A stretch of DNA of 41,026 nt, from the NCBI GenBank assembly GCA_030647965.1, contig JAUSIT010000004.1, positions 1 to 41,026 of the forward strand, in the 5' to 3' direction. The stretch is from Nanobdellota archaeon (GTDB lineage Archaea > Nanobdellota > Nanobdellia > Pacearchaeales > GW2011-AR1). Both the position numbers and the translations under genes were made by a program. Numbering within the stretch: the first letter of the stretch is position 1; the number at the start of each line of letters is the position of its first letter. Below, one piece after another: positions 4,495 through 36,715 of the stretch. The notes under the pieces were generated by a model. The model was not told the DNA's origin. It ran no database searches and saw nothing but the letters and a program-made list of their open reading frames with translations.

Positions 4495-4686
4495 TCAAAT
4501 CTAGGTTTAATACTCCACAGCTTACTGTGATAGTAAGATTTGAAACCGGGAAAATCTATAGATTTTCAAGGCCCAGAAAAATTAAGGATTTTTCTTGGAG
4601 ACTAAAATTGCTGGTCGCGAAGCGAAAAATTTCGCGGAAAATACTCCGTAGCTTGCTACTGAGATAACGAAATTTTAGGCAATTTT
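4495..4686. repeat. Modular multi-hairpin element, copy A
   Basis: Ordered hairpins: 4495-4502/4536-4543 (TCAAATCT/AGATTTGA) enclosing 4516-4520/4525-4529; a perfect palindrome at 4550-4567; 4572-4582/4589-4599; then an outer stem 4604-4611/4679-4686 (AAAATTGC/GCAATTTT) enclosing TCGC-GAA-GCGA at 4615-4625, 4626-4634/4668-4676 (AAAATTTCG/CGAAATTTT) and 4644-4651/4656-4663. The copy at 36460-36715 has the same linkers and order with different but still complementary stems. It is placed between antitoxin and toxin; its right arm supplies the last residues (about PKISLSQ) and stop of the antitoxin, so it arrived after the operon existed. Confidence 0.85.
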
Positions 4687-4859
4687 TTTATTGCCTCTAA
4701 AGAAACCAAATCCCCAGATTTTTCATGTTCAACACTTTCATTCAACATTCTTTTTTCTTCTTCTGTAATTATAATATCTGTATCAATCATATTTTCTTGT
4801 ATATACTTTAATGCCTTCTCTATTCTATCTAAACGATTAATAATATTTTGTTGTTCCAT
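4656..4859 (-). CDS. RelB-like antitoxin
   Basis: A 67-residue acidic protein with the archaeal RelB-type layout: a leading helix with IDRIEKAL-like character (residues 8-18), then IITEEEKRMLNESVEHEKSGDLVSLEAIKK. The family usually ends near LVSLEEIKK plus a few residues; here the last seven codons lie inside the structured element, giving an altered C-terminus (PKISLSQ). It is encoded on the same strand as, and upstream of, the RelE-like frame at 4228-4485. AT-rich sequence with TATA-like TATATAG lies at 4860-4890. In 4860-4963 I see no gene. Confidence 0.68.
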   Translation of the reverse strand: MEQQNIINRLDRIEKALKYIQENMIDTDIIITEEEKRMLNESVEHEKSGDLVSLEAIKKLPKISLSQ

Positions 4860-4963
4860 ATTGATATATAGATATTTAACCTATATAAAATTTTCTAATG
4901 CACACAGACAGATCTAATAAATAAAACTATAATCTCAAACAATTTTAAGTTTTTTGACTTTGT

Positions 4964-5017
4964 CCAACATTACATTAATATTCAATCCCTAAGTACAACA
5001 ACATTATTCATTCCTCT
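4964..5017 (-). pseudogene. Displaced 3' tail of the winged-helix regulator gene, copy 3
   Basis: Minus frame 5017-4982 reads RGMNNVVVLRD and ends in a stop (TGA), matching the intact regulator's last 11 residues exactly. It follows immediately on the stop of the 96-residue gene at 5017-5307 in another frame. To its left the AACATTACATTAA block is shared with copy 1. Confidence 0.7.
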
Positions 5018-5307
5018 TATTTTCCTTTCATAGCTTTCTTAATTCTGAGCAATTTGGTGTGCTCATCAATGACTAATCTAGTTAATACTCTATGGGGGAA
5101 GTCTGGAATCATCTCAGAAGATTTTCTAAAACTAATTAATGTTCCTCTAAAATTAAAATTATTTTCAATTTTATCTATCAAATTCAAAAGTAATTCAGAA
5201 TATTCTGGAAATCCCCCCAATTCGACATGTTTATCTCTGTCGTCATCCCCAAATACTCTATCTGCATAATACATTCCATCTGCCTTATAAATTTCATATT
5301 TTCCCAT
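5017..5307 (-). CDS. Hypothetical 96-residue protein
   Basis: A charged soluble protein starting at the ATG at 5307 (MGKYEIYKADGMYYADRVFG...). There are no cysteines, no membrane segments and no motif that I recognise. It is divergent from the TrmB gene and sits in a segment bounded by two copies of the regulator tail (4982 and 6355). The ORF is convincing by length and composition, but its function is unknown. Confidence 0.5.
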   Translation of the reverse strand: MGKYEIYKADGMYYADRVFGDDDRDKHVELGGFPEYSELLLNLIDKIENNFNFRGTLISFRKSSEMIPDFPHRVLTRLVIDEHTKLLRIKKAMKGK

Positions 5308-5404
5308 TTTCTTGTATTATTTTTATATTTTTAATTACTATTTAGTAGATGTCAACTAGTTTATAAATAATTGTAGTCTTAATTAAGATGACAAAATAGA
5401 AAGA

Positions 5405-5413
5405 CTTAAATAT
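5405..5413 (+). promoter_or_regulatory. TATA box of the TrmB-family gene
   Basis: CTTAAATAT centred about 25 nt before the ATG at 5435, consistent with a leaderless transcript. Confidence 0.5.
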
Positions 5414-5434
5414 TGATTTTTATTAAATAATCCT

Positions 5435-6172
5435 ATGGCAGAACGAGAAATACTGGAAGAGCTTGGTTTATCAGAAACAGAAGCAAGAGTTTATCTTGCA
5501 TTAATAGATACAGGTTCCAGTCTAGCAGGTCCAATAATTAAAAAAACAGGGCTTCATAGAGGAACCACATACCAGATTTTACAGAGATTAAAAGAAAAAG
5601 GCCTTGTAAGTTCTATTATTCAAGGGAAAAAACAATATTTCCAACCAGTAAATCCAGAAAGATTAATGGATATTTTAAAACAAAGACAAGAAAAGTTAGA
5701 AGAAATACTTCCAAATCTTAAGGCAAAATTAAAAGCAAGTGAGGAAAAGCAGGAAGTTACTGTTTATTCAGGTGTTAAAGGAATAAGATCACTAATGGAT
5801 AAAATCTTGGAAGATTTAAACCCAGAAGGAAAATATTATGATTTTGGTGTTTCTGGTTTATTCAAGGAAATTATGAAAGAGTATTGGGATATATGGCAAA
5901 AAAAGAAAAGAAAATACAAAATAAAGTCTTATGTTATTTTTAATGAAGAAGTAAAAAAGAAGAACCCTCAATTGCTGAAAGATTATTATGGTGAAGCAAG
6001 ATTTCATCCAAAAGAATATTCAAGTATAACCGATACAATAATTTACAAAGATTTTGTCATCCTTTTTATTTGGACAGCAAAACCCCCCATAGCAGTTGTA
6101 ATTAAAAATAAAGGAAATGCAGATTCTTATAAAAATCAATTCAAACTGATGTGGAAATATTCTAAAAAATGA
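5435..6172 (+). CDS. TrmB-family transcriptional regulator
   Basis: A 245-residue protein. Residues about 4-75 form the TrmB winged helix, with the family's LGLSETEARVYLALI start and a recognition helix around GLHRGTTYQILQRL. A short coiled coil follows at about 80-100 (ERLMDILKQRQEKLEEILP), then a C-terminal regulatory domain (about 106-240, starting VTVYSGVKGIRSLM) of the type that follows many archaeal TrmB DNA-binding domains. It overlaps the following 61-residue membrane protein gene by 4 bp (ATGA), so the two are co-translated. Confidence 0.85.
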   Translation: MAEREILEELGLSETEARVYLALIDTGSSLAGPIIKKTGLHRGTTYQILQRLKEKGLVSSIIQGKKQYFQPVNPERLMDILKQRQEKLEEILPNLKAKLKASEEKQEVTVYSGVKGIRSLMDKILEDLNPEGKYYDFGVSGLFKEIMKEYWDIWQKKKRKYKIKSYVIFNEEVKKKNPQLLKDYYGEARFHPKEYSSITDTIIYKDFVILFIWTAKPPIAVVIKNKGNADSYKNQFKLMWKYSKK

Positions 6173-6354
6173 ACTTCAATCTAACAACCACAAAAACTCT
6201 TGTATCTTTATCAATGCCAATTTGGATTGCAATATACTTTAATATTATTTTAAAACACTGCGTAGGGATATATTGTTATTCAAATCCAATAATTATATTA
6301 GGAATTCCTTTGCTGTTAATTGTTTATCTTATTTGGAGCTTGTTTGAGAAATAA
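6169..6354 (+). CDS. 61-residue membrane protein, copy 2
   Basis: A near-identical duplicate of the protein at 4006-4191, with two hydrophobic segments. Its ATG overlaps the TrmB stop, and its own TAA (6352-6354) directly abuts the stop codon of the minus-strand regulator at 6355. The same junction is preserved at 4189-4194. Sequence divergence between the copies is mostly at third codon positions, which suggests that both are or were under selection as proteins. Confidence 0.6.
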   Translation: MNFNLTTTKTLVSLSMPIWIAIYFNIILKHCVGIYCYSNPIIILGIPLLLIVYLIWSLFEK

Positions 6355-6828
6355 TTAATCCCTAAGTACCACCACATTATTCATCCCTCTTCTCTTTCTT
6401 TCAATAAGTTGTTTTGCTTCTAATTTATCTAAAAGTCTTGTTATTCCAACTTTTCCAATCCCTAGTTTTTCCATTAAGCTCGCTTGAAACATGGTTCCAT
6501 TTTCACTTTGAAGCAAATCAATAGTTTTTCTTTCATAATTATCTAATCCTGTTAAATCCAATTTCTTTTTATGTTCTTTTATTTTTTTAATAACAATTCT
6601 TTCAGGTTCTTTTGCAAAAACAAAAAATAATCCAATTAAAAAAACCAAACCAGCAATTGCCAAGCTAATATCTGTTTGAGTTGAAATTGTCCCATACATT
6701 GAACAAGAAGGCCCATGAGTACATGTTTGAGCAACAATATTTTTTAAAGCATTATTAAATATAAAAATTATAATTGCAATTACAACTGCGATTCCGCTAA
6801 TTAAATATCCTACTTGTTTGTTTTTCAT
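6355..6828 (-). CDS. Membrane-anchored winged-helix regulator
   Basis: 157 residues. Two membrane helices (about 6-28 and 57-73) flank a short external loop with Cys36 and Cys42. After a basic stretch, a MarR/IclR-like winged helix (about 92-150) contains LMEKLGIGKVGITRLLDKLEAKQLIERKRRGMNNVVVLRD as its recognition helix and wing (split here: helix at GKVGITRLLDKLEA). Such proteins occur widely in archaea as putative membrane-tethered regulators. Its start region is repeated in tandem upstream (6816-6980), and its last 11 codons recur at 4192, 4982 and, decayed, 2944. Confidence 0.78.
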   Translation of the reverse strand: MKNKQVGYLISGIAVVIAIIIFIFNNALKNIVAQTCTHGPSCSMYGTISTQTDISLAIAGLVFLIGLFFVFAKEPERIVIKKIKEHKKKLDLTGLDNYERKTIDLLQSENGTMFQASLMEKLGIGKVGITRLLDKLEAKQLIERKRRGMNNVVVLRD

Positions 6829-6893
6829 GTGTCTTGTTCGTTGAAAAATAAATGCTCAAAAATCCAGAGATTTTTGTTGTGTTTGTTTTTCAT
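6825..6893 (-). CDS. Upstream ORF 2 (22 residues), overlaps the regulator start
   Basis: Reads MKNKHNKNLWIFEHLFFNEQDT and then TGA; the stop overlaps the regulator's ATG (ATGA at 6828-6825), which would allow translational coupling. It begins in the second copy of the repeated start region. It could equally be a by-product of the duplication. Confidence 0.35.
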   Translation of the reverse strand: MKNKHNKNLWIFEHLFFNEQDT

Positions 6894-6901
6894 GTGTCTT
6901 T

Positions 6902-6958
6902 TCAGTTGAAAAATAAATGCTCAAAAATCCAAAGATTTTTGTTGTGTTTGTTTTTCAT
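6902..6958 (-). CDS. Upstream ORF 1 (18 residues)
   Basis: Reads MKNKHNKNLWIFEHLFFN and then TGA, from the outermost copy of the repeated start region. It is the first ATG downstream of the TATA box at 7005-7013, so ribosomes on this transcript would meet it first. Confidence 0.3.
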   Translation of the reverse strand: MKNKHNKNLWIFEHLFFN

Positions 6959-7004
6959 GTGTCTTGTTCGTTGATTATTAAGTAATTAATGTCCTAAATC
7001 ACGC

Positions 7005-7013
7005 CTTATAAAG
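7005..7013 (-). promoter_or_regulatory. TATA box of the membrane winged-helix regulator
   Basis: On the minus strand CTTTATAAGG; the predicted transcription start near 6980 would put all three repeated start regions on the mRNA. Confidence 0.5.
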
Positions 7014-7025
7014 TTTATGAAATCA

Positions 7026-7325
7026 TCATCTAATTAAAGTTAATAAAAAAGAAGTATTTTCAATTGCTTTTAATGAATGAACAGCATTTTCTTTCATATT
7101 AATTAAAACCCCTTCTTTCATTATTATATTTTCTCCTTCTAAATTAAAAACGCCATTTCCTTCAAGAACATGAATAATCCCTTCTTTAGTTGAAGTATGT
7201 TCTGACATTTCTGTTCCTTTAGCCATGCAAAATAAAGTTATATCTATCTTTTCATCTTTTAGGATTTCTTTGCTAATAATTCCTTTTTTAGGATATTCTA
7301 TTTGATTTTTTAAATTTGTATTCAT
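7026..7325 (-). CDS. Small cupin-domain protein
   Basis: A 99-residue single cupin domain: the first motif lies around GTEMSEHTSTKEGIIHVLEG (residues about 37-56, with His43 and Glu48) and the second around MKENAVHSLKAIENTSFLL (His83). Only part of the usual metal-ligand set is present, so a metal-independent or weakly binding cupin is possible. It is the last gene of the Fe-S/stress operon, 1 bp after the ferredoxin-type gene. The substrate is unknown. Confidence 0.75.
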   Translation of the reverse strand: MNTNLKNQIEYPKKGIISKEILKDEKIDITLFCMAKGTEMSEHTSTKEGIIHVLEGNGVFNLEGENIIMKEGVLINMKENAVHSLKAIENTSFLLTLIR

Positions 7326-7326
7326 T

Positions 7327-8160
7327 TTATTTTTTTCCTCCTTGAATTGTTATAATATTCTGTCTCAAAAGAATTATTTTTCCGGAATTTTTTATTGCAT
7401 TTTCAGCAATTCTTTGCAGTCCGAAACAACAAGGGACCTCCATATTAACTAGATTAATTGCCTTTATATTGTTATTTTTTAAAATATCTGTCAATTTTTG
7501 TTCGTAAAATTCTGCATCATCTAATTTAGGGCAACCTATAATTAAAGCCTTGTTTTTTAAAAAATCTGAATGAAAATTTGCGTATGCAAATGGAACACAG
7601 TCAGCCACCAATAATAAATCAACATTCTTAAAATAAGGAGCATTTGAATTCACAAGTGATAACTGAACAGGCCATTGCCTTAATTCTGATTCTTGCCGTG
7701 AATTTATATCCTGCTTTTTGTCCATTTTCTTATTCCTAAAATCTATCATCTTAGAACCAGGACATCCACAAAATTCTTTTTCTGTTTTTTTGCTACCCTT
7801 CTTTTCTAATGGGTTCTTAATATTCTTTTCTTTTAGATATTTAATAGCTTCATTCAAATAATTAGTTTCTCCATGCTCTTTTAAATGCTCTAAATGAGCT
7901 TTTATTGTGTTTTTTCCCTGCTCCACGATGTTATTCATAACTTTTTTCTCATTATAAGGTTCTGCTTCTCTTTCTTCAATTTTAATTGCTCCTTTGGGGC
8001 AGTGCCCAATACAAGCTCCTAAACCATCACAAAATAAATCACTAACAAGTCTAGCCTTTCCATCTATAATCTGTAAAGCTCCCTCTGGACAGTTAGGAAT
8101 ACATAAACCGCATCCATTGCATTTTTTTTCATTTATCTTTATAATTTTCCTTTTTGCCAT
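7327..8160 (-). CDS. 4Fe-4S ferredoxin-type protein with large C-terminal domain
   Basis: 277 residues from the ATG at 8160 (an in-frame ATG further upstream would lie inside the hemerythrin gene). A complete cluster motif, CNGCGLCIPNC, has Cys14, 17, 20 and 24. A second, CDGLGACIGHC, has only three Cys (44, 50, 54), with Leu where the second Cys is expected; in my recollection this is normal for the family. The C-terminal domain holds WPVQLSLVNSNAPYF, a membrane-free VADCVPFAYANFH region and an IGCPKLDD motif. This family is found with hybrid-cluster/nitrosative-stress genes in anaerobes. It starts 10 bp after the hemerythrin gene. Probable role: electron transfer or redox enzyme partner. 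Confidence 0.8.
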   Translation of the reverse strand: MAKRKIIKINEKKCNGCGLCIPNCPEGALQIIDGKARLVSDLFCDGLGACIGHCPKGAIKIEEREAEPYNEKKVMNNIVEQGKNTIKAHLEHLKEHGETNYLNEAIKYLKEKNIKNPLEKKGSKKTEKEFCGCPGSKMIDFRNKKMDKKQDINSRQESELRQWPVQLSLVNSNAPYFKNVDLLLVADCVPFAYANFHSDFLKNKALIIGCPKLDDAEFYEQKLTDILKNNNIKAINLVNMEVPCCFGLQRIAENAIKNSGKIILLRQNIITIQGGKK

Positions 8161-8170
8161 ATTAATTATT

Positions 8171-8701
8171 TCATTTTTTGCCTGATTCTTCAGCAAATTT
8201 AATATATCTCTCAATTTCTTTTTCTCTTTCTTTTGCAATTTTTTCATATTTTTCTAACATTTCTGATTTAGTTTTCTTACTTAAAGCATCTTCACTCATG
8301 GGATATAATATATTATCTTCTTTGAATATGTGCTCATGAATTAACTGAGAATATCCTCTTGCTCCATAAACTAATTTCTTTTTATCATTACTTTCCAATC
8401 CCTCAGTCATTAATTTCACACTTGCCCTACCTTCATCATGTTCAACTAACATTTGTTGAATAGGATTACAATGAGTACATCCTTCTTCAGCAGATTTATT
8501 GAATTCATAAAATAAAATATCTTCTTCTTTTGCATGATGAAATTTATCTGCATAATTTTTTATAAAATCAATAGCATTTATAAAAAAGGTTTGGTCAATT
8601 TCTTTTCCAGTTTCAATTGCATTACACTCTCTTTCAAGCACACCTACTAGTTTTAAGATATTTTTATGTTCATCAACAAGTATTTTTGTAATTTCTTCCA
8701 T
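8171..8701 (-). CDS. Hemerythrin-like (HHE) iron protein
   Basis: 176 residues from the ATG at 8701, set by a GGAGG ribosome-binding site at about 8712-8716; upstream in-frame codons belong to the leader element. Candidate iron ligands of the four-helix bundle are His12, His55/His56, Glu59/Glu60, His88, Glu90, His122, His124 and Glu128. A CTHC pair at about 75-78 could be redox active. Hemerythrins bind O2, NO or iron; next to desulfoferrodoxin and Fe-S genes, a role in oxygen/NO sensing or in supplying iron for Fe-S repair (as for RIC/YtfE-type proteins) is likely, but that is inference. Confidence 0.82.
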   Translation of the reverse strand: MEEITKILVDEHKNILKLVGVLERECNAIETGKEIDQTFFINAIDFIKNYADKFHHAKEEDILFYEFNKSAEEGCTHCNPIQQMLVEHDEGRASVKLMTEGLESNDKKKLVYGARGYSQLIHEHIFKEDNILYPMSEDALSKKTKSEMLEKYEKIAKEREKEIERYIKFAEESGKK

Positions 8702-8711
8702 TTTTTTAATT

Positions 8712-8808
8712 TCCTCCAAGTTTCCTTGGAAATTTAAAAGACAGAAAATCAGAGATTTTCCGTATTTCCAACTCATTCAATCCAATAGGCAAACAATAAT
8801 TGTTGGAA
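8712..8808 (-). repeat. Double-hairpin leader element, copy J, with RBS hairpin
   Basis: On the minus strand, in order: GTTGGAA/TTCCAAC (8802-8808 with 8766-8772), ACGGAAAATC/GATTTTCTGT (8754-8763 with 8741-8750; one G-U pair), then CCAAG-GAAA-CTTGG (8716-8729), a GNRA-type hairpin directly followed by GGAGG and the hemerythrin ATG. It fills the gap between desulfoferrodoxin and hemerythrin. The same arrangement is at 10061-10204. A role in controlling translation of the downstream gene is plausible. Confidence 0.75.
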
Positions 8809-8809
8809 T

Positions 8810-9193
8810 TCATTTAGACCCCCACAATCCATGAACATTACAATATATTCTCGCAGTAATTTTATTTGCATTTACACAAAACTCTGCTTCTGGTTTCATG
8901 CCAGGTTTTAAAAATTTCTTAAAACTAATTCCATCTGCAATAACCTCTATCCATTGAATATAATGCTTTTCTTCCATTGGATGCTCTATACTTCCTACTT
9001 TAACCTTAATGCCCGTCTTTGTTTTTTCTATAATAGGAACATGCTTTTCTTTTCCAACATCTTCTTTTTTTTCTACAAGAAGTTTCATTGGCTGGCCGCA
9101 GCAAACTAATTCCCCACCACCAACATTTAATACTTCAACAATATTCCCGCATATTTCGCATTTGTAAACTTGATTTATGTCTTTAACTCCCAT
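8810..9193 (-). CDS. dfx: Desulfoferrodoxin (superoxide reductase, two-iron type)
   Basis: 127 residues. The N-terminal desulforedoxin-like centre has Cys12, Cys15, Cys31 and Cys32. The catalytic SOR centre has His51, His71, His77, Cys118 and His121, the complete His4-Cys ligand set, with the family's KHYIQWIEV context. It reduces superoxide to hydrogen peroxide without making O2, typical of anaerobes. It overlaps iscU by 11 bp, so the two are translated together. Confidence 0.93.
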
Positions 9194-9605
9194 TTTTTAC
9201 TCCTTTTTTCTTTTTTTCATAATCCTTAATGGCCTCATTCAAAGCATCTGCAGCTAAATTAGAACAATGCATTTTTATTGGAGGTAATCCCTGAAGAGAT
9301 TCAGCAACATCATTTCTTGTAATTTTCTTTGCTTCTTCTAGTGTTTTTCCTTTTGCTAATTCAGTAATCATTGAAGAAGTTGCAATTGCAGCTCCGCATC
9401 CCATTGTCTGAAATTTAATATCTTTAATATATTCCTCTTCTTTGTTATTAATTTTTTTCTTTCCAACTTTAATATAAAGTTTCATGACATCTCCGCAGTA
9501 AGGGTTCCCCACACTTCCAGTTCCATCTGCATCATCAATTTTCCCAACATTTTTAGGATGTTGAAAATACTCTTGAACTTTTTTGCTATACATTTCTAAA
9601 CTCAT
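9183..9605 (-). CDS. iscU: Fe-S cluster scaffold protein IscU/NifU-like
   Basis: 140 residues with the scaffold ligands Cys37 and Asp39 (in YCGDVM), Cys70 (in MGCGAAIA) and Cys114 (in KMHCSNLA). The assembly site is complete. Together with the cysteine desulfurase at 11515-12654 it makes a minimal ISC system in the same operon. Its stop lies inside the desulfoferrodoxin start region, and its start is 1 bp after the DUF1858 gene. Confidence 0.92.
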
Positions 9606-9606
9606 T

Positions 9607-9840
9607 TTATTTCTTCCCCTTCTTATTTAATTCCTTAACTAATTCATCAGGATTAACTCCATGGGCCAAAGCACCTTGTTCAATTGTTTCTTGCATTGCC
9701 ATAGGGCATCCACAACACATCATTCCTCTTTCAGAAAGTTTCATTGCAGCACCCCTATCATTTTGAATTAATTCTGCAAAAGTCATTTTCTTGTTTACTT
9801 TTCCTTTTTCAGTTTTTTTTGTTTGTTTTTTTGTTTTCAT
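9607..9840 (-). CDS. DUF1858 domain protein (redox-disulfide type)
   Basis: 77 residues: a Lys-rich N-terminus, then a DUF1858 domain from Met19 with the conserved MCCGCPMA motif (Cys42, Cys43, Cys45) and the AHGVNPDELVKELN ending. These domains are found alone or fused to hybrid-cluster or Fe-S enzymes and probably act in thiol/redox handling. It overlaps the upstream gene's stop by 4 bp. Confidence 0.85.
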   Translation of the reverse strand: MKTKKQTKKTEKGKVNKKMTFAELIQNDRGAAMKLSERGMMCCGCPMAMQETIEQGALAHGVNPDELVKELNKKGKK

Positions 9841-10052
9841 TTTTTGCTCGTCCTCCTTTTTGCTTTTACTTCTAAAATTGCTTTACTTTTTCCTGCAAGT
9901 GGTGGAAGTATATGTGATAACACTTGCTCTGCAGTCATTGGAAAAAAATTTCCTTTTGCACTTTTTTGCATCCATCCTTTTTTAGTTTTGTATATGGTTT
10001 GCACTATTTTGTTTTTGCTTTTTGCATAAATTATACATTCGTCGTTTTTCAT
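9837..10052 (-). CDS. Hypothetical 71-residue basic protein
   Basis: Starts at the ATG at 10052, preceded by TTGGAGGAAATT; codons further upstream in frame translate the leader hairpin and are not protein. The product is basic, with one Cys and a Lys/Arg-rich C-terminus, and has no motif that I recognise. It is translationally coupled to DUF1858 (ATGA overlap) and so is probably part of the Fe-S/stress response. Confidence 0.6.
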   Translation of the reverse strand: MKNDECIIYAKSKNKIVQTIYKTKKGWMQKSAKGNFFPMTAEQVLSHILPPLAGKSKAILEVKAKRRTSKK

Positions 10053-10060
10053 CTTGAATT

Positions 10061-10204
10061 TCCTCCAAGTTTTTTTGGAAACTTTAAATCTCATTTGGAG
10101 TTTAAAGGCCAGAAATCTTAATTTCTGGATTTAAGAGACAGAAAATTCTTAATTTTCTGTATATTCAACTCTTTGTATCCTGTAAACGAGTAATAAAAGT
10201 TGAA
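10061..10204 (-). repeat. Leader element, copy K, with an extra hairpin module
   Basis: Minus-strand order: AGTTGAA/TTCAACT arms at 198-204 and 164-170 of 10,000, ACAGAAAATT/AATTTTCTGT arms (10138-10147, 10151-10160), an extra hairpin CCAGAAAT/ATTTCTGG (10109-10116, 10121-10128) within CTTTAAA/TTTAAAG (10082-10088, 10101-10107), then the CCAA/TTGG hairpin and GGAGG before the ATG at 10052. Compared with copy J (8712-8808) the first stem has lost one base on both sides, so pairing is kept, and about 45 bp of extra hairpin is inserted. Confidence 0.75.
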
Positions 10205-10212
10205 TTTCATAT

Positions 10213-10971
10213 TTATTTTATCGCCTCAATTTTAATACTCTCAAGAGCTATTCCTTTATATTGCCTTTTGCTTATATCTTTATCTTCAGACATAATACTA
10301 ACCCTAAATCCTACTTTTTTTATTTTATTAATATAATCTTCTTTTTGCAAAGCTCCTGAAACACATCCAGATAATAATTCATTATTATTTTTTTGTTCTT
10401 TTGTTAAATCTCCAAGCAAAACAATATCTGAAACATACATTTTTCCACCTTTTTTCAAAATTCTATATGCTTCTCTAAAAACCTTGTCTTTATCTGGAGC
10501 AAGATTTATTACACAATTGCTGATAATAACATCAGAACTATTGCTCTCAACAGGTAAACTTTCAATATCCCCTAATCTAAATTCAACATTACTAAAATTA
10601 TATTTTTTTGCATTTTGTTTTGCTTTTTTAATCATTTCTTCGGTCATGTCTATTCCAATAACTTTTCCTTTTTCTCCAACTTTTTTTGAAGCAATAAAAC
10701 AATCTAATCCTGCTCCACTTCCAAAATCAACAACAACATCCCCTAATTTTATTTTAGAGAATGCAGTAGGATTCCCACAACCAAGACCTAAATTAGCTTC
10801 TGGAACAATTTTTAATTCTTCATCAGAATAACCTATTGATTTCGCAATTTTTTCTTGCATTGAACTTGAACAACTACAACACCCACAAACTTCTCCAGAA
10901 TTGCGATTACTTTTTTTTGCAATTTCACTATAGCTTTCTTTCACAATTTTTTTAATATCTTGTTGTTTCAT
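10213..10971 (-). CDS. arsM: Arsenite S-adenosylmethionine methyltransferase-like protein
   Basis: 252 residues. The Rossmann SAM-binding site is [14 protein letters not shown] at 81-94, with an acidic residue of motif II in IGIDMT. The three cysteines that bind As(III) in ArsM are matched by Cys65 (LGLGCGNP), Cys153 ([11 protein letters not shown]) and Cys203 ([13 protein letters not shown]). An N-terminal CGCCSC cluster at 29-34 is an extra. The reaction would be stepwise methylation of arsenite. In an operon whose other genes deal with cysteine, Fe-S clusters and oxygen, arsenic may be one of several thiophilic stresses. It overlaps cysE by 4 bp. Confidence 0.85.
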
Positions 10972-11513: not shown

Positions 11514-11514
11514 T

Positions 11515-14652: not shown

Positions 14653-14655
14653 TAT

Positions 14656-28071: not shown

Positions 28072-28139
28072 ATATCATCTAAAAATTTTTAGTATTTAAA
28101 CATTATTATAGGGATGAATTATTGAATAAAAATAAGAAA

Positions 28140-29234: not shown

Positions 29235-29284
29235 AAATTTAGATTATTAAAATAGCTTAAAAGCATTATGGCATTATAATGACA

Positions 29285-29417: not shown

Positions 29418-29423
29418 AACACT

Positions 29424-29431
29424 TTTATAAA
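29424..29431 (+). promoter_or_regulatory. TATA box of trpS
   Basis: TTTATAAA 22-29 nt before the ATG at 29453; it begins only 7 bp after the end of element F. Confidence 0.65.
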
Positions 29432-29452
29432 TCTCTAATTATTTAATAAAAT

Positions 29453-30532
29453 ATGAACGAAAAAGAGATAATCGATCCATGGAGTTCTAATCTTCCTGAA
29501 AATTATAGGGATATTATAAATAATTTTGGATTAGAAAAATTTAATGTTCATGATTTTCCAGAACCCAATTTATTAATGCGAAGAGGAATTATATTTGCAG
29601 GAAGAGGTTTAGGGATTATTTCAAAATCAATAAAGCAAAAAAAGAAATTCTATATTTTAACAGGAATAATGCCAACTGCAGATAAAGTTCATTTTGGAAC
29701 AAAATCAGTAATTGATATGGCTGTTTATTTTCAAAAACACGGCGCTGAAACATATGTTTTAGTTGCTGACTTAGAAGCAGCTGCAACAAGAGGAGTTGAT
29801 TTACAAACAGCAAAAAAAAGAGCTTTAGAAATTCATATCCCATGTTATGTTGCACTTGGCCTAGATTTAAAAAAAACAAAATTTTATTTTCAATCTTCAA
29901 ATCAAGATGTTACAAATCTTGCTTTTGAAATATCTAATAAAGCAACTTTAAATGAATACAAAGCAATTTATGGAAATGCAGAACCTTCAAGAATAATGTC
30001 TTCTTTATTGCAAGTTGCAGATATTTTACATCCTCAATTAAAAGAACAAATGCCAGGAATAATTCCAATAGGAATAGACCAAGACCCCCATATGAGATTA
30101 GCAAGAGATATTGCCTCGAGAGCATCAAAATTCAAATTTATTTTACCATCTTCAATAAATCATAAATTTGTTCCTTCATTAACAGGAGATTTAAAAATGT
30201 CCAAATCAGAAGGAAATTCATTATTTTTATTAGATAGTGATAAAGAAATAAAAGATAAAATCTCAAAAGCCCTTACAGGCGGGCAAAAAACACTAAAAGA
30301 ACAAAAAGAACTTGGCGGAAATCCAGACAAAGATATGATCTTTGAATTGTTTAGACAGCATTTAATTGAAAATGATAGTGAACTTAAAAAAAGAGAAGAA
30401 GATTATAGAAATGGTAAAATTTTAGATTCAGAAAATAAAGAATATGCAACAAAACTTTTAATTGAATTTATGAATGATTTTAGAAAAAAATTTGAAAAAG
30501 CGCAAAAAGAAGTCAAAAAAAGTTTTGATTAA
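29453..30532 (+). CDS. trpS: Tryptophanyl-tRNA synthetase, archaeal/eukaryotic type
   Basis: 359 residues, class I. The start has the DPW signature of archaeal TrpRS (IIDPWSS, residues 6-12). The HIGH equivalent is VHFGTK near 79-84 in ILTGIMPTADKVHFG and the KMSKS loop is KMSKSEGNS near 250. The tail is Lys-rich. It charges tRNA-Trp. Short but full-length for the small-genome archaeal form. Confidence 0.94.
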   Translation: MNEKEIIDPWSSNLPENYRDIINNFGLEKFNVHDFPEPNLLMRRGIIFAGRGLGIISKSIKQKKKFYILTGIMPTADKVHFGTKSVIDMAVYFQKHGAETYVLVADLEAAATRGVDLQTAKKRALEIHIPCYVALGLDLKKTKFYFQSSNQDVTNLAFEISNKATLNEYKAIYGNAEPSRIMSSLLQVADILHPQLKEQMPGIIPIGIDQDPHMRLARDIASRASKFKFILPSSINHKFVPSLTGDLKMSKSEGNSLFLLDSDKEIKDKISKALTGGQKTLKEQKELGGNPDKDMIFELFRQHLIENDSELKKREEDYRNGKILDSENKEYATKLLIEFMNDFRKKFEKAQKEVKKSFD

Positions 30533-30552
30533 CTAAATCTTAGTAAAAATAT

Positions 30553-31452
30553 TTATCTTTGAAGTTGTTGCGGGCTAGTTTGTGTTTGTTGTTGAGCAGG
30601 AACACTAGGAGATATTGCTCTTAATTGGGTTGTTTGAGTTTGAGGCATACTCGCTTGCTGAACTGGTTTTGAAGCTGGTTGTTGTGGTTTTTGAGATTGC
30701 TGTTGAGGCATTTGAGAAGGCATTGCCATTGCTTGCATTTTTTCTTCAGGAGGAAAAATTTCTATTCCTTTTGATGTAATTCTCATTCCAATTAAAGTTC
30801 TTGCATGATTTGTTCTTCTCATTTTTGAAATTCTTAAAGCCCTATCCCCAACACCAGATAAACCAGATTCATATAAATTAGTTACAGAATCTGCTAAAAA
30901 TTTCATTATATCTGTTTTATTTAAATTTGTAACATCACTGCCTGTTAAATTCTGACTTTCTAAAGATTCATCAGCTAAAATACTTGTTACATTTAATCTT
31001 TTCATTAAAGAAGAAAGTTCAAATACCATTTCCCTTATTTTTCCTTCATCATTAATATTTAATGCTAAAACAGAAACAGGATCTAAACAAACTCTTTGAA
31101 TACTATATCTTGAAATTAATCTTGTTAATTCATTTTTCAAATCTTCAATAGAAGTTCTTGGTGAAAATTTCAAAAATTTAACTCTGTCTTGTTCATTTAA
31201 TTTTGTAAAATCCCATCCATAAGACATTGCATCTTTTAGAGTTTCAACAATATCTGGCTCAAAACTGCAATATAATCCATTTTCATTAAACTTTGTTGCC
31301 CCATTCCATAAAAACTGCAATAAAAAAGTTGTTTTCCCAAAACCAGGCCCGCCTGTTAAAATATTATCAGAATTTCTTACAAAACCACCTTGAGTAATTT
31401 TATCAAAACCAGGAATTCCTGTCGGACACCTCTCTATTGGAACCATCACCAT
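30553..31452 (-). CDS. KaiC/RadA-like RecA-fold ATPase with Gln-rich tail
   Basis: 299 residues from the ATG at 31452 (MVMVPIERCPTG); TTTAAATA at about 31476-31483 gives leaderless spacing to it, whereas a Met five codons earlier is too close. Walker A is GGPGFGKTT, Walker B region RVCLDPVSVLAL, with the family's start CPTGIPGFDKITQGGF. There is a single KaiC domain (about 1-240), not the double form, followed by a Gln/Pro-rich low-complexity tail (about 245-299). Such proteins are common in archaea and are linked to signalling or surface structures; the partner is unknown. Confidence 0.87.
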   Translation of the reverse strand: MVMVPIERCPTGIPGFDKITQGGFVRNSDNILTGGPGFGKTTFLLQFLWNGATKFNENGLYCSFEPDIVETLKDAMSYGWDFTKLNEQDRVKFLKFSPRTSIEDLKNELTRLISRYSIQRVCLDPVSVLALNINDEGKIREMVFELSSLMKRLNVTSILADESLESQNLTGSDVTNLNKTDIMKFLADSVTNLYESGLSGVGDRALRISKMRRTNHARTLIGMRITSKGIEIFPPEEKMQAMAMPSQMPQQQSQKPQQPASKPVQQASMPQTQTTQLRAISPSVPAQQQTQTSPQQLQR

Positions 31453-31488
31453 TATTATATTATTCATTATAGATATTTAAATGTTATG

Positions 31489-31607
31489 TCAGAAATGTGG
31501 TTAAAACCGCACCCTTCGAGGTGCTGCATTTCTGAGCATCCCAAAAACAAGTGCCAATCAAACAAAAAGTTTTGCTCTTATCTTTTGCGTTCCATTGTTT
31601 TTCTGAT
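31489..31607. repeat. Modular multi-hairpin element, copy G (inverted relative to F)
   Basis: TCAGAAATG/CATTTCTGA (31489-31497, 31527-31535) encloses GCACC/GGTGC (31509-31513, 31520-31524). Next, ATCCCAAAAAC (31538-31548) can pair with GTTTTTCTGAT (31597-31607) and encloses an S-type arm AAAAAGTTTTGCTCTT (31564-31579) with its usual loop sequence, although the second S arm is missing. It lies between the divergent KaiC-like and ThrRS genes and is in reverse orientation to copy F. Confidence 0.8.
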
Positions 31608-31636
31608 CTAAGTATATTTCACCAACTATAATTAAT

Positions 31637-31644
31637 TTTATAAA
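31637..31644 (+). promoter_or_regulatory. TATA box of thrS
   Basis: TTTATAAA 22-29 nt before the ATG at 31666; selects this start over the in-frame ATG at 31651. Confidence 0.65.
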
Positions 31645-31665
31645 CATCTCTTGTTTCTTGTATTT

Positions 31666-33432
31666 ATGAAAATACTATCTTTACACTGCGATTACCTAAA
31701 ATTCAAAGCAGGAAAAAAGGCAATAAAAGAACCAGAAGAACTTTCTGAAAAAGAAAAAAAAGAAATTGAAATAAAAGAACCTCTTGTAATATTTACTGCT
31801 GTTGAAAAAACAGATGAATCAGATCCAAAAAAAATAACAGAACTTCTTGTTGAAAATGTTTTAGATTTAATGAACAAAGTTGGAGCTAAAAAAATTATAT
31901 TGTATCCTTATGCACATTTATCTTCAAATTTATCTTCTCCAGCTATTGCTTTAGAAGTTTTAAAAAATGCAGAAGCAGAATTAAAAAAGAAAAAAATAGA
32001 TGTTAGCAGAGCACCATTTGGATATTACAAAGAATTTGAATTAAAATGCAAAGGCCATCCTTTAGCAGAATTATCAAGAGAAATACTAATTAATGGGAAA
32101 TTGAAGCCACAAGAAACCGAAAGTGCCTTAGGCAAATCCCAAGAAATAACCAGCATTATAAATAAAGATGAAAAATACGACCCTGTTCAATTATTAAGAC
32201 AAATTTCAAAAACAAAATTAGATACTTCTAAATTAAAAGAAAATGACCATAGAATTTTAGGTAATAAATTAGATTTATTTTCATTTAATGAAACAGCTCC
32301 TGGAATGGTTTTCTGGCATAATAATGGTTTGATAATTTATAATGAACTAGCAAATTATTGGAGAGAAGAACATAGAAAAGCAAATTATGAAGAAGTTTCA
32401 ACCCCTCAAATCTTAGATAGAAAATTATGGCAAATTTCAGGACACTGGGAAAAATACAAAGATAATATTTTTTTAACAAAATATGAAAATAGAGATTTTG
32501 CAGTAAAACCAATGAGCTGTCCAGGAGGAATGTTAATATTTAAATCAAAACAAAGATCTTATAAAGAAATTCCTTTAAGAATGGCAGAGCTTGGAGTTGT
32601 TCACAGGCAAGAGCTATCTGGAACTCTAGCAGGATTATTCAGAGTTATAAGAATCACACAAGATGATGCACACATATATTGTACAGAAAAACAATTAGAA
32701 ATTGAAATAACAAATATAATTGAAATGATTAATAAATTCTATAAAAAATTTAATTTACCCTTTGATCATGTTGAGCTTTCAACACGTCCTGAAAAAAGAA
32801 TAGGGGATGATAAAATATGGGATAAAGCAGAAAAAATACTTGAAGATGTTTTAAAAAAGAAGAAAGTAAATTATAAAATCAACAAGGGAGATGGTGCTTT
32901 TTATGGTCCTAAAATTGATTTTCATGTTAAAGATTCACAGGGAAGAACCTGGCAATTATCAACAATTCAATTAGATTTTGCAATGCCTGGAAGGTTTGAA
33001 CTAGAATATATTGGAGAAGATAATCAAAAACATCAACCAATTATGCTTCATAATGTTATCTATGGTTCTTTAGAAAGATTTATTGGAATTTTACTTGAAC
33101 ATACAAATGGAAATCTTCCAGTATGGCTTTCTCCAATTCAAGTTAGAGTTTTAAGTTTTACAGATAGAAATAACAAAGCATGTGAAAAACTAGTGGAAAA
33201 ATTAAAACAAGAAGGAATAAGGGTAGATATTGATTTAGAATCAACAACAGTAAATGATAAAGTAAGAAATGCTGAATTGTTAAAAATTCCATATATAATT
33301 GTTTTAGGAGATAAAGAAGAACAAAATAAAACACTAGCACTAAGACAAAGAGGAGAAAAACTAAAGTTTGGAGTTAAAGAAGAAGAATTTATTCAAGATT
33401 TAAAAGAAAAAATAAATAATAGGGAAGATTAA
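31666..33432 (+). CDS. thrS: Threonyl-tRNA synthetase, archaeal type
   Basis: 588 residues. The N-terminal about 140 residues form the archaeal DTD-like editing domain (MKILSLHCDYL start, YPYAHLSSNL, RAPFGYYKEF). The class II catalytic core follows, with the zinc ligand Cys in KPMSCPGGM, motif 2 around HRQELSGTLAGLFR, motif 3 around GSLERFIGILLEH, and a C-terminal anticodon-binding domain (from about 490, LPVWLSPIQVRVL). It charges tRNA-Thr and edits Ser-tRNA-Thr. First gene of an operon with the two small genes that follow. Confidence 0.96.
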   Translation: MKILSLHCDYLKFKAGKKAIKEPEELSEKEKKEIEIKEPLVIFTAVEKTDESDPKKITELLVENVLDLMNKVGAKKIILYPYAHLSSNLSSPAIALEVLKNAEAELKKKKIDVSRAPFGYYKEFELKCKGHPLAELSREILINGKLKPQETESALGKSQEITSIINKDEKYDPVQLLRQISKTKLDTSKLKENDHRILGNKLDLFSFNETAPGMVFWHNNGLIIYNELANYWREEHRKANYEEVSTPQILDRKLWQISGHWEKYKDNIFLTKYENRDFAVKPMSCPGGMLIFKSKQRSYKEIPLRMAELGVVHRQELSGTLAGLFRVIRITQDDAHIYCTEKQLEIEITNIIEMINKFYKKFNLPFDHVELSTRPEKRIGDDKIWDKAEKILEDVLKKKKVNYKINKGDGAFYGPKIDFHVKDSQGRTWQLSTIQLDFAMPGRFELEYIGEDNQKHQPIMLHNVIYGSLERFIGILLEHTNGNLPVWLSPIQVRVLSFTDRNNKACEKLVEKLKQEGIRVDIDLESTTVNDKVRNAELLKIPYIIVLGDKEEQNKTLALRQRGEKLKFGVKEEEFIQDLKEKINNRED

Positions 33433-33636
33433 ATGACAAAAGAATATAGTTCAGGTTTAGCAATAAGAAGATACACAACAAAAGAAAGAGCATATGCTCT
33501 TTTAGAGGACATTAACAGAAATAATACTACAGAATTTGTAAATCCATTAAGAACTCAAGTAGTAAAAATAGAAACAGGGAGAGATTTAGAGAATAATCCT
33601 AAATACGAATATGAAGTCTATGTAACTCTAAGATAA
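33433..33636 (+). CDS. Hypothetical 67-residue protein
   Basis: Its ATG directly follows the thrS stop with no gap. It is a small soluble protein with LAIRRYTTKERAYALLEDIN at its start and no motif that I recognise. Operon position suggests co-expression with ThrRS. Confidence 0.55.
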   Translation: MTKEYSSGLAIRRYTTKERAYALLEDINRNNTTEFVNPLRTQVVKIETGRDLENNPKYEYEVYVTLR

Positions 33637-33638
33637 AA

Positions 33639-34145
33639 ATGACAGAACAAACAATTACTCAATTATTTTCAGAACTAAAGCAAAAAGACTTTTACAATAA
33701 ATTTATTAAAGAAAATCCAGATGCATTTTTAGCAGCAGGCTTTTTTGTTCTTGATTTAGAAAATAATTATAATAAATATCAATTAGATTTTTTTATACCA
33801 CAATTAAATAAAATTGCAATAGCAGAATATCCATTTAAAGAAATTAAAATTCAAGAAGATGAAATAACAGAAGCACAAATTTTAAATGAAAACCCTTTAG
33901 TTGATTTAGATGATTTAATTGACGAAATAAATAAACTTAAAATTAAAAATGATTATGATAAAAAAACAAACAAGATTATAGCAATCTTAAAAGATAATTT
34001 TTGGAGCTTAACCTGTATGTCTATTACATTTGATATATTAAAAATAAGAATAAACTCTCTTACAGGAGAGTGCGAAAAGTTTGAAAAAGCAAATTTAATG
34101 AATTTTATAGACATCAAAAAAAAAACCATTAGTTCTTCACTTTAA
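33639..34145 (+). CDS. Hypothetical 168-residue acidic protein
   Basis: An acidic soluble protein starting 2 bp after the previous gene (MTEQTITQLFSELKQKDFYNKF...). An N-terminal helix is followed by a beta-rich part and a helical C-terminus with one CMS Cys. No family is recognised. It ends just before element H. Confidence 0.6.
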   Translation: MTEQTITQLFSELKQKDFYNKFIKENPDAFLAAGFFVLDLENNYNKYQLDFFIPQLNKIAIAEYPFKEIKIQEDEITEAQILNENPLVDLDDLIDEINKLKIKNDYDKKTNKIIAILKDNFWSLTCMSITFDILKIRINSLTGECEKFEKANLMNFIDIKKKTISSSL

Positions 34146-34167
34146 AATTCTTAGAGCGGTTTTTTAG

Positions 34168-34211
34168 GATGATCAGAAATGAACTTCAAATTTTATATCA
34201 TTTCTGACATC
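34168..34211. repeat. Modular hairpin element, copy H (minimal form of F/G)
   Basis: GATG/CATC (34168-34171, 34208-34211) and TCAGAAATGA/TCATTTCTGA (34173-34182, 34198-34207), the same frame as copy F but with no inner hairpin and with the last stem pair changed from C-G to A-T on both sides. Confidence 0.8.
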
Positions 34212-34242
34212 AAAAAAAAGAAATAAGTGTTTTATTGAAAAA

Positions 34243-34407
34243 GTCCTTTGGACAAATTATGCTAAAGCAAGATTTATGGAATTTTCTAGCGAAAATTATG
34301 ATTTATTAATTAATTGTGGGAGATGCAAAAAGTTTTGCTCTTGCAATAAGTAACGCAAGATAAAAGAGTAAAACTTTTTCTAATCGACCTAATATCTCCA
34401 CGAAGTG
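34243..34407. repeat. Modular multi-hairpin element, copy E
   Basis: GTCC/GGAC (34243-34246, 34250-34253); AATTTT/AAAATT (34280-34285, 34292-34297) with loop CTAGCG; linker GATTTATTAAT; GTGGGAGAT near 34316-34324, which can pair with ATCTCCAC at 34394-34401; S-type stem 34327-34342 with 34364-34379 (one G-T pair); and the triloop hairpin CAC-GAA-GTG (34399-34407). Block order is as in copy D. Other than elements H and E and a TATA-like CTTTTAAATG at 34481-34490, 34146-34516 holds no gene. Confidence 0.85.
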
Positions 34408-34516
34408 CAAATTATAATAAACAAACACATTTTTCCTCCAAAAACCCTAAAAAAGAACTATATAATACAAATCCATAATTCTTTTAAATGGATTTTTTCT
34501 ATTAAATTTGATTAAA

Positions 34517-34792
34517 ATGTCAATTCGAGATGTAGACCATATAAAACCTGTTGTAGATTACATAAAGAGAAATATGCATAAAGGTTATGACCTGAATTCT
34601 TTAAAATGGGCTCTTATTAAACAAGGACACTCTAAAACAGAAGTTGAAAGAGCATTGAGTATTGCAAAAGACGAATTTGATAGAGAAAGACCAAGACAAT
34701 CAGAGCCAGCAGTTCAAATTGAAGAACCAAAAACAGAAGTAATACCTGATGAAAAAAAAGGTATGTTCAAAAGACTTTGGGATTGGCTTTAA
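34517..34792 (+). CDS. Hypothetical 91-residue protein with amphipathic C-terminus
   Basis: Starts at the ATG at 34517 (MSIRDVDHIKPV). The N-terminal half is helical, with a GYDLNSLKWALIKQGHSKTEVERAL segment (a helix pair of the kind seen in small archaeal UBA/SHOCT-like domains). A charged linker leads to a C-terminal amphipathic helix KKGMFKRLWDWL that could bind the membrane. Function unknown. Confidence 0.6.
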   Translation: MSIRDVDHIKPVVDYIKRNMHKGYDLNSLKWALIKQGHSKTEVERALSIAKDEFDRERPRQSEPAVQIEEPKTEVIPDEKKGMFKRLWDWL

Positions 34793-34799
34793 ATAAAAG

Positions 34800-35177
34800 A
34801 TTAACATAGTCATTGATAGCTATCAAAAACAATATATTATAATAGAATCACTATTCAGACTTCAAAATTCTAAGACATTTCATTCAGATGATGCAAAAAT
34901 TCATACTGCATTTTTTACATTAAAAAAAGATTATCCAGAATATTTTAATCGTTTAAAATTTGATGAAAATGGACATTCTCCAATAAGCGAAGATTTAGAA
35001 GACATTTTTACAGATTTTTTAATTTGTGGTTTTATTAACTATGACCTTAACTCAAAAAATGCATACATATCAACAAATAATGAAGAAACATATAAAAAAA
35101 GAATGAATAAATATCTCTTAAATATTAATCAAAAAGAATTAAAAACTATTTCAAAAGAACTATCAGAATTATTATAA
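34800..35177 (+). pseudogene. Hypothetical protein frame without a start codon
   Basis: An open frame of 125 codons reading ...YQKQYIIIESLFRLQNSKTFHSDDAKIH... and ending ...ISKELSELL. It contains no ATG before residue about 101 and no in-frame GTG or TTG near the N-terminus; the previous in-frame stop is at 34794-34796. Codon composition is like that of its neighbours, so it was or is coding. Either the 5' end was lost or an ATT/ATA start is used. Confidence 0.5.
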
Positions 35178-35178
35178 T

Positions 35179-35670
35179 TTATTCTTCAATCTCTAAATCT
35201 TTTCTCATTAAAAATCTTTCAACATTTTCAGATTCATAAGAAATGCTACCTAAATTTTCAAATCCTAAATGATAATAAACATTTATTGCATTATCATTAT
35301 TTTCATCTACTGTTAAAGAAATATAATCAGCTTTTTTATTAACTGCAATTTGTTCTAACTTATCAAAAAGTTTTCTAAAATTTCCAGCATGAGGTTCATA
35401 AGACTCAGCTAAATCAATAAATAAAAAAGACCTATTTAATTCATCTTTATCAAAATAAAAATTAAGATATGCTATTTCTTGTTCTTTTCTTTTTAAAATT
35501 AAACTTGTATCTCTTTCTTCAATTCTTTCGTCAATTTCTCCATCCAAATCTAAATCACATCCAAAATCAATTCTTCCAAGTGCTTTTGTTCTTAATTCTG
35601 CTTCTGTGTTTGTTAAGCTACCTGCAAGCAATTCATCTGCAATTCTTTCTAATTCAATTCTTTTATTCAT
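35179..35670 (-). CDS. GNAT-family N-acetyltransferase
   Basis: 163 residues. The C-terminal part carries the GNAT core: a LDKLEQIAVNKKADYISLTVDENNDNAINVYYHLGFENLG stretch (motif A/B area, with NDNAINVYYHLGF as the clear signature). The N-terminal part is acidic and helical, and the canonical Q/RxxGxG/A acetyl-CoA loop is degenerate (PHAGNFRKLF). The substrate is unknown. It converges on the start-less frame at 34800-35177. Confidence 0.72.
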   Translation of the reverse strand: MNKRIELERIADELLAGSLTNTEAELRTKALGRIDFGCDLDLDGEIDERIEERDTSLILKRKEQEIAYLNFYFDKDELNRSFLFIDLAESYEPHAGNFRKLFDKLEQIAVNKKADYISLTVDENNDNAINVYYHLGFENLGSISYESENVERFLMRKDLEIEE

Positions 35671-35728
35671 TTTAATTCTTACAAAAATTCATACCTTATA
35701 AAGGTTATTACCTTTTAATGACGCAAGT

Positions 35729-36418
35729 CTACTTCTGTACAACCGCATTAATATTTTTACCTTCAGTTATGCTTAAAACTTTAAATCCAACTTTTTTCAG
35801 CAATTTTTCAAATTCATCTTTATCATAAATATAAGTATATCTTTGGTATTTTTTTCCCTTTACTGTCCAAGGAATAAAACTTTCCTTTGGCTTATTTTTT
35901 ATCCTCATATTATTTCTGCTCCATACTAAAACAAGTGCCTTTGCTTTTGGTTTTAAAACCCTATATAATTCTTTAAGTGTTTTTTCTCTTTTTTCAGAGC
36001 TTTCAATACAATGAAGCATAGCCACACAAATTGCAGAATCAAAAAAATTATCTTTAAACTGAAGTTTTGTTGAATCAGAAATAAAAAATTCTGCATTTAT
36101 CTTTTCTTTTTTTGCTTTCTTTTTTGCATATTCAAGCATTTCTTCTGAAAAATCAACAGCATAAATTACTCTTTTACTTTCTTTATTTTTTATAAAATTT
36201 CTCCCGCTTCCACATCCAAAATCAAGTATATTTCCTTTTTTGTCTTTTAAAAATTCAATAACCTCTGGAGAAGAAGCAGTTCTAACTTCATTCCATTTAG
36301 GAGCAATATTATTCCATACTTGCTTCTGATCTATTTTCAAATCTGAGTTCAAGCCCTCATCACTTACCAACATAGATTTGAAAAGACTGAAATTAGGTAA
36401 TTTCTTTATTTTTTTCAT
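35729..36418 (-). CDS. SAM-dependent methyltransferase, Trm9/ALKBH8-like
   Basis: 229 residues. Motif I is ILDFGCGSGRN near 68-78; post-I YAVDFSEEML; motif around CVAMLHCIESSEKR; and KPKESFIPWTVKGKKYQRYTYIYDKDEFEKLL in the C-terminal part (key piece KPKESFIPW). This combination is typical of the Trm9/ALKBH8 family that methylates modified wobble uridine in tRNA. In the same window Elp3 (39725 on) makes the cm5U-type intermediate that Trm9 uses. Trm112, the usual activator, is not visible. Confidence 0.8.
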   Translation of the reverse strand: MKKIKKLPNFSLFKSMLVSDEGLNSDLKIDQKQVWNNIAPKWNEVRTASSPEVIEFLKDKKGNILDFGCGSGRNFIKNKESKRVIYAVDFSEEMLEYAKKKAKKEKINAEFFISDSTKLQFKDNFFDSAICVAMLHCIESSEKREKTLKELYRVLKPKAKALVLVWSRNNMRIKNKPKESFIPWTVKGKKYQRYTYIYDKDEFEKLLKKVGFKVLSITEGKNINAVVQK

Positions 36419-36459
36419 TAATAACTAAAGAAAAAGAGGTTTATAAAAATAATTTATTT

Positions 36460-36715
36460 TCAAATCGAGGTTTAATACAAAATGTTTTGTTCTTACAATA
36501 GGAACGCAAAATAATAAGAACAAAACATTTTTCCGCAGCTTGTGGTGATAGTAAGATTTGAAACCGGGAAAATCTATGGATTTTCAAGGCCTAAAAAAAT
36601 CAGTGATTTTTTTTGGAGACTGAAATTGCTAGTGCGAAGCAAAAAATTCATGAATACTCCAGAACTTGCTCTGGAACATTAGCGAACAATAGGATCATGA
36701 ATTTTTAAGCAATTT
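36460..36715. repeat. Modular multi-hairpin element, copy B (with inserted S hairpin)
   Basis: The same frame as copy A: TCAAATC/GATTTGA (36460-36466, 36555-36561); CCGCA/TGTGG (36533-36537, 36541-36545); GAAAATC/GATTTTC (36568-36574, 36579-36585); 36590-36616 hairpin; outer stem AAATTGCT/AGCAATTT (36623-36630, 36708-36715) enclosing TGC-GAA-GCA (36633-36641), AAAAATTCATGA/TCATGAATTTTT (36642-36653, 36695-36706) and CCAGA/TCTGG (36659-36663, 36670-36674). A 17-bp S-type stem (36479-36495 with 36515-36531) is inserted at the spot where copy A has TACTCCACAG. It begins or ends 2 bp from the MTAP-APRT stop. Confidence 0.85.

Follow-up and report, generated by a model that had tools for sequence, protein, structure and literature searches.

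Two elements of 199 and 264 nt and a third, minimal copy, all on the + strand of the window (the whole stretch of DNA that was analysed, 41,026 nt of Nanobdellota archaeon contig JAUSIT010000004.1), are very probably non-autonomous palindrome-associated transposable elements (PATEs) of one family, which is akin to IS200/IS605 and presumably moved in trans by a Y1 TnpA transposase. Copies of the family are dispersed in many genomes of the class, tiny DPANN archaea that live as symbionts, with precise ends and no target duplication, each end carries stems that are kept by pairing and hardly by sequence, and insertion sequences with matching ends were found in relatives.

Copies in the window

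Copy A occupies positions 4493–4691 (+; 199 nt including the right-end TTTAT), with its ends taken from comparison of dispersed copies. It is preceded by a TTTAT at 4488–4492 (+), the presumed target and left cleavage site, and finishes in the TTTAT at 4687–4691 (+), the presumed right cleavage site. Its left-end module (4493–4545, +; assigned by folding) is made of stem S1, with arms TTTCAAATC (4493–4501) and GATTTGAAA (4537–4545), around GGTTTAATAC and the left near-terminal palindrome (4512–4535). An optional middle module of two hairpins, missing in many relatives, follows at 4546–4598 (+). The right-end module (4604–4686, +; assigned by folding and pair counts) is bounded by the arms of S2 (4604–4612 and 4678–4686), the long enclosing stem formed by AAATTGCT and, at the right end, AGCAATTT / GGCAATTT; inside S2 lie the triloop hairpin TCGC-GAA-GCGA (4615–4625, +), stem S3 (4626–4634 and 4668–4676, +) and the right palindrome with AATAC (4640–4663, +). 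A covariance model (R1), built from seven aligned copies, matched copy A at 4493–4545 and 4589–4691.

Copy B (36458–36721, +; 264 nt) has TTTAT directly before it (36453–36457) and was matched by R1 at 36608–36721. It carries an extra 17-bp hairpin (36479–36531, +; arms 36479–36495 and 36515–36531) between AATAC and the left palindrome, the middle two-hairpin module (36564–36616, +) and a right-end module (36622–36716, +) with S2 arms at 36622–36630 and 36708–36716, the triloop hairpin at 36633–36641 (+), S3 arms at 36642–36653 and 36695–36706 (+) and the right palindrome at 36654–36677 (+). The minimal copy (36335–36409, +; R1 match with E 2.7e-6) has the outer two stems only, namely S1 (36335–36343 and 36375–36383, +) and, after the linker AGACT (36384–36388, +), a short S2 (36389–36394 and 36399–36404, +); its left flank is TCTAT and it ends in TTTAT (36405–36409, +). 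Folding as single-stranded DNA beat shuffled sequences with z = −6.3 for copy A and −8.4 for copy B.

All the ordered blocks that the original prediction had quoted as common to A and B were found where it placed them, as was the extra hairpin of copy B; the enclosing stem S2 had been described only in part, and in a count of two copies the minimal one had been overlooked. The statement that the stems differ on both sides between A and B holds for the quoted S3 and triloop-hairpin differences and fails for S1, which has the identical sequence in both; the bulk of the evidence for compensatory change was found in other genomes.

Copy A lies between a ParE/RelE-type toxin ORF (4228–4488, −; Pfam PF05016, E 3.6e-8), which abuts its left side, and an ORF (4656–4880, −) without a Pfam match that is presumed from its position to encode the antitoxin; the last codons of this reading frame are now read from copy A, and its end is thereby altered.

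Distribution, mobility and candidate parents

R1 gave about 100 matches in 21 of the 180 genomes of the window genome's family and, in a phylum-wide sample of 279 genomes, matched 24, all carriers being in the window genome's class. In the window's own 0.98-Mb genome it matched eight places, so that the search for further copies proposed by the original prediction returned at least eight and not two alone; a DNA search likewise found further copies there and in relatives. Many matches were counted in G188 (Nanoarchaeota C20_maxbin.123; about 20), G147 (17) and G023 (16), and the carriers named by a pattern scan were Pacearchaeota, Nanoarchaeota and Woesearchaeota MAGs. Presence in many genomes of the class makes this a wide family and not a local duplication. 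Viral contigs gave no match to one exact 22-base pattern, a weak test since copy B and many other copies lack that exact pattern.

The elements are 84–314 nt long and hold no transposase ORF. Twenty-six full copies were parsed in one common scheme, in which the left part reads flank pentamer, S1 5′ arm, GGGTTTAATAC with the left palindrome (often ..AGCTTGCT..), S1 3′ arm and a short linker (AGACT, ATTA or TTC), and the right part reads S2 5′ arm, triloop hairpin, S3 with AATAC and the right palindrome inside it, S2 3′ arm and TTTAT. A near-terminal palindrome with AATAC just before it thus stands at each end, the right one being missing in minimal copies. Two features are optional: the middle two-hairpin module, which one of two copies in a single genome has and the other lacks (L174, at 1042 and 6808), and extra hairpins close to the palindromes (in copy B, in the C14 copy, in G176 C34 and, as a related insert, in L041). 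Together they account for the complexity seen in the window copies.

Near-identical copies were found in unrelated flanks, at least 12 in JAUYDD and four in G147. With end patterns that were read off the sequences before being counted, the left flank pentamer was TTTAT in 17 of the 26 parsed copies and ended in AT in 24 (the others being TTGAT, TTAAT, TATAT and the like), and the right end was TTTAT in all 26. This asymmetry of a variable left and a fixed right pentamer is expected if the left site is chosen as target and the right site is borne by the element. The gene flanking one G023 copy was uninterrupted in four other genomes, which belong to other genera and are not sister strains; at the insertion point these empty sites hold TTTAT or CTTAT once, and no target duplication was seen at the compared empty sites or copies. 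Terminal inverted repeats were absent, the termini TTTCAAATC... and ...GCAATTTCTTTAT not being inverted copies of each other. Insertions were located at gene starts, at gene ends and inside dispensable genes, including a hicA-like gene in G023 (named from the neighbouring gene, weakly HicB-like in a relative) and, in G176, a HEPN gene (homologue PF05168), and many copies were intergenic. In every clear case the gene at the insertion point lay on the strand opposite to the IS strand, a bias that plausibly arises because TTTAT reads ATAAA on an A-rich coding strand.

Candidate parents were found in G150, which holds three near-identical, single-gene IS copies with a Y1 TnpA (NF033573, E 4.7e-35), and as relatives in G194, G184 and G213. 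The G150 TnpA scored 113 bits with the IS200 model (cut-off 55) and only 19.3 bits with the REP model (cut-off 80), so that it is not a REP-type TnpA. In the IS of G150, G194 and G184 the left end, TTTATTCC..GGGTGAATACCCCGCAGCTTGCTGCG, corresponds to the left module of the elements and the right end, ATATCCCGCAGC..GATGGGTTGTTTAT, to the right one; parent left ends read TTTATTCCTCACTGGGTGAATACCCCGCAGCTTGCTGCG and similar, parent right ends have the same palindrome type and finish in GGGTTGTTTAT or a TTGAT variant, and the left end of G303 elements, TTTATTCCTCGCTGGGTCTAATACCCCGCAGCTTGCTGCGG, is only a few bases from that of the G150 IS. Two other groups were rejected as parents: IS608-like Y1 elements (G023, G163, G176, G284, G267, G297, G389), whose readable ends differ, with a right end around GATGTCAC / GGTCAC, and a second TnpA clade (G034, G116, G119 and others), whose ends are TTCAC and not TTTAT.

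From these observations the following course of movement is proposed. The + strand would fold when single-stranded and each end would display its near-terminal palindrome; AATAC, immediately 5′ of the foot, would act like a guide. Ends of IS200/IS605 elements are recognised through a guide tetranucleotide that lies on the 5′ side of the hairpin foot (PMC6006769). A trans-acting Y1 (HUH) transposase, of the TnpA type known from IS200/IS605, would cut 3′ of TTTAT at each end, and the element would leave as single-stranded DNA to be rejoined 3′ of another TTTAT-like pentamer. S1 and S2, the stems specific to the family, would make each end a single compact module, at whose base the cleavage site lies. 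A copy with an unfolded end would no longer move, which would explain why pairing is required and sequence nearly free. S1–S3 flank both presumed cleavage sites and only their pairing is conserved, which suggests that they may serve recognition of the single-stranded DNA.

A resident transposase was rejected as the mover in the window's genome (85% complete), where a Y1 search with PF01797 gave no match. There was also no Y1 match in G249 (99% complete, 4 copies), G229 (99%), G270, G280 or G303 (7 copies), most carriers, several of them nearly complete, were without a TnpA of the matching clade, and R1 found no element in the genomes with the matching TnpA (G150, G184, G194). TnpB above the family cut-off was likewise absent from 20 genomes, most of them carriers, with control genomes matched. 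As most carriers have no matching TnpA or TnpB, we can only infer the mobilising enzyme. It may have been lost after a burst, may be missing from the MAGs because repeats break assemblies, may be supplied from outside, or may be an unknown one; according to the available text of PMC3119063, insertions of Haloquadratum PATEs were seen though nearly all tnpA copies were broken. Possible, if doubtful, is a class-wide folded-DNA family whose ends are covarying stem modules, moved not by a resident TnpA but by a HUH-type or host enzyme that has gone unrecognised, or by enzymes passed from cell to cell, with S1–S3, and not the palindromes alone, as the recognition feature. The matching ends tie the family to IS200/IS605, a tie that does not by itself make the matching enzymes its movers.

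Pairing of the stems and its interpretation

In a MAFFT column alignment of S1 the 3′ arm was off by one base between linker types, and pairs were therefore counted on stem-only composites. Across 18 distinct stem sets 98.0% of cells were paired, double changes were present in 16 of the 28 pairs (64 such cells; shuffles gave 15.9), and the covariation score was 0.403 against 0.155 for shuffles and 0.03–0.10 for slid partners, in counts that placed the hairpin and the 5′ arms of S1 and S3 by best pairing and that include related, non-independent copies. For S1 the values over the 18 stem sets were 98.8% paired and double changes in 6 of 9 pairs. In a second test the left arms were set by their position before GGG, and so not by best pairing; 46 of 60 copies then matched their own downstream sequence 8/8, compared with 5.1% for the arms of other copies. 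Pairing of S2 was also kept in distant families (GAAATTCC/GGAATTTC and GAAAATCG/CGATTTTC, arms found by best pairing). The sequence of S1 and S2 is nearly free and their pairing is required. Compensatory stem evolution, which the original prediction had read from A and B, is thus borne out by copies in other genomes, and the covarying pairs that it proposed to seek are there; of its wording 'structured RNA or folded single-stranded DNA element' the second half is upheld and the first found no support.

A structured non-coding RNA (riboswitch, ribozyme, 3′-UTR element or small RNA) that is merely repeated would also account for strong covariation and conserved linkers, and RNA folding of copies A and B beat shuffles on either strand (z = −3.6 to −5.7). 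This reading is quite unlikely: covariation cannot tell RNA from single-stranded DNA, no Rfam family was matched above its gathering threshold and only chance-level matches up to E 1 were obtained, and the copies lie in unrelated gene contexts, also inside genes, with precise TTTAT ends and empty sites. Wobble counts gave no clear preference for the opposite, gene-sense strand; G·T and A·C in S1 stood at 14:5 cells, from few independent events, and neither strand was clearly marked as selected.

Instead of selection for folding, template-switch correction acting on imperfect palindromes at replication could maintain the stems, with mobility a separate matter. S1 was indeed swapped wholesale between otherwise alike copies of one genome (G176 C34 and C51), as such correction would produce, but nested stems with different partners stay perfectly paired while loops and linkers are conserved, and the fixed stem positions relative to TTTAT are left unexplained, which makes this account quite unlikely.

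It is very improbable that the elements are omega-RNA carriers, that is, non-autonomous IS605-type elements whose right-end structure guides a TnpB acting in trans, with TTTAT as transposon-adjacent motif. The right-end stems covary and the structure stops exactly at TTTAT beside a variable flank, and omega-RNAs at IS605 right ends likewise stop next to variable flank; the TnpB search described above and the single gene of the IS200-type parents speak against it. An IStron-like element removed at the RNA level, so that gene insertions are harmless, would suit the copies inside genes (G023 hicA-like, G176 HEPN) and the altered antitoxin frame at copy A but is extremely improbable, as it requires a group I intron, none of which was among the Rfam matches, and as host genes run opposite to the IS strand, an orientation plausibly due to the TTTAT/ATAAA bias, and many copies are intergenic.

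Comparison with known elements

Small DPANN genomes are usually regarded as poor in mobile DNA, and the PATE-kind elements described here seemingly add a transposase-less family for these archaea; no earlier description was found in the literature searched, most subscription papers being outside that search. Stem sequence and pairing are separable over about 60 natural copies, a ready-made mutational experiment on the recognition of folded ends by single-stranded DNA transposons. The family also sharpens the Haloquadratum puzzle of PATE movement in the absence of intact transposases, and it cautions against taking strong covariation as proof of RNA.

The IS200/IS605 parents (IS200 group with a single tnpA; G150, G194 and G184) share the TTTAT-type site and the AATACCCC and AGCTTGCT palindromes with the elements, which differ in having no tnpA, whereas the parents have no clear S1, S2 or S3. 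REP/REPIN/BIME sequences with TnpA_REP (RAYT) have in common short palindromes, a guide tetranucleotide and non-autonomous spread, but the TnpA kin here is IS200-type (NF033573), there is no GTAG-type guide, and the element is a single precise unit with TTTAT ends. IStrons (a group I intron with IS605) likewise combine IS605-type mobility with conserved secondary structure, whereas no intron family, tnpA or tnpB was detected in the elements. MITEs are also short, without transposase and mobilised in trans; the present elements differ from them by the absence of terminal inverted repeats and of target duplication.

Closest are the PATEs of Haloquadratum walsbyi, which, in the available text of PMC3119063, share the absence of transposase, terminal inverted repeats and target duplication, near-terminal palindromes of IS605-type kin, a conserved terminal or targeting oligonucleotide, great sequence variability everywhere but in the palindromes, small inserts next to these and a poor match with intact local transposases. 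The defining features of PATEs were looked for in the elements and were found, except that minimal copies have no right palindrome. The elements differ from what that text covers in their archaeal phylum, in the TTTAT target and in their conserved linkers and optional middle hairpin modules, and their palindromes are enclosed by the further stems S1 and S2/S3 with compensatory change, none of which it describes. The PATE kind of element is already known; the enclosing, covarying stems S1–S3 with their linkers are new.

Copies and neighbouring genes in the window

A putative type II toxin–antitoxin operon (window 4228-4880), consisting of a ParE-type toxin and a presumed antitoxin, is split by copy A of the element (4493-4691), which replaces the final codons of the presumed antitoxin frame. 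A third, minimal copy, comprising the enclosing stem S1, the AGACT linker, a short S2 and the right end TTTAT, was located at 36335-36409 within the predicted start region of a methyltransferase ORF (35729-36418); the real start of this gene probably lies further downstream than predicted.

Related elements, flanks and target specificity

TTTAT ends as in the main element are also carried by a different short element of simpler palindrome structure, TATTGTAATACCCCACAGCTTGCTGTGGGG...GTTAATACCCGTTTAT, present in genome G034 as four identical copies at unrelated sites (L070, L087, L098 and L099). The right end is likewise TTTAT in a second subfamily with the pattern CTCCAAATGGG..CCATTTGGAG GC TTAAAGAATC..GATTCTTTAT, found at loci L008, L038/L105, L100 (own genome), L107 (G118, which holds two near-identical copies) and L073 (G021). 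Right ends of a second clade of the same TnpA transposase family (L226-L233, several genera) finish in TTCAC, so closely related TnpA clades of these archaea have undergone a switch in target specificity. Two copies in Nanoarchaeota C20_maxbin.123 (L175 and L177) share an identical right-hand flank, GTCGGAAATTGAAAACCTCATC..., and thus both adjoin another repeated mobile element.

Component hairpins

Genomes from other families of the same order that lack the remainder of the element contain its middle hairpin, CC(C)AGAAAAATC..GATTTTTCTTGG, by itself in intergenic positions (L011, L014, L020, L022 and L025), and this hairpin may therefore represent a small repeat in its own right. Hairpins related to the extra hairpin of copy B (window 36479-36531) were found in two further copies of the own genome (L002 and L041), and the loop carries GTTCCTATTG in either orientation. 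Hairpins of this type are reminiscent of SMR-A, the small mobile repeats of Haloquadratum whose targets are PATE palindromes.
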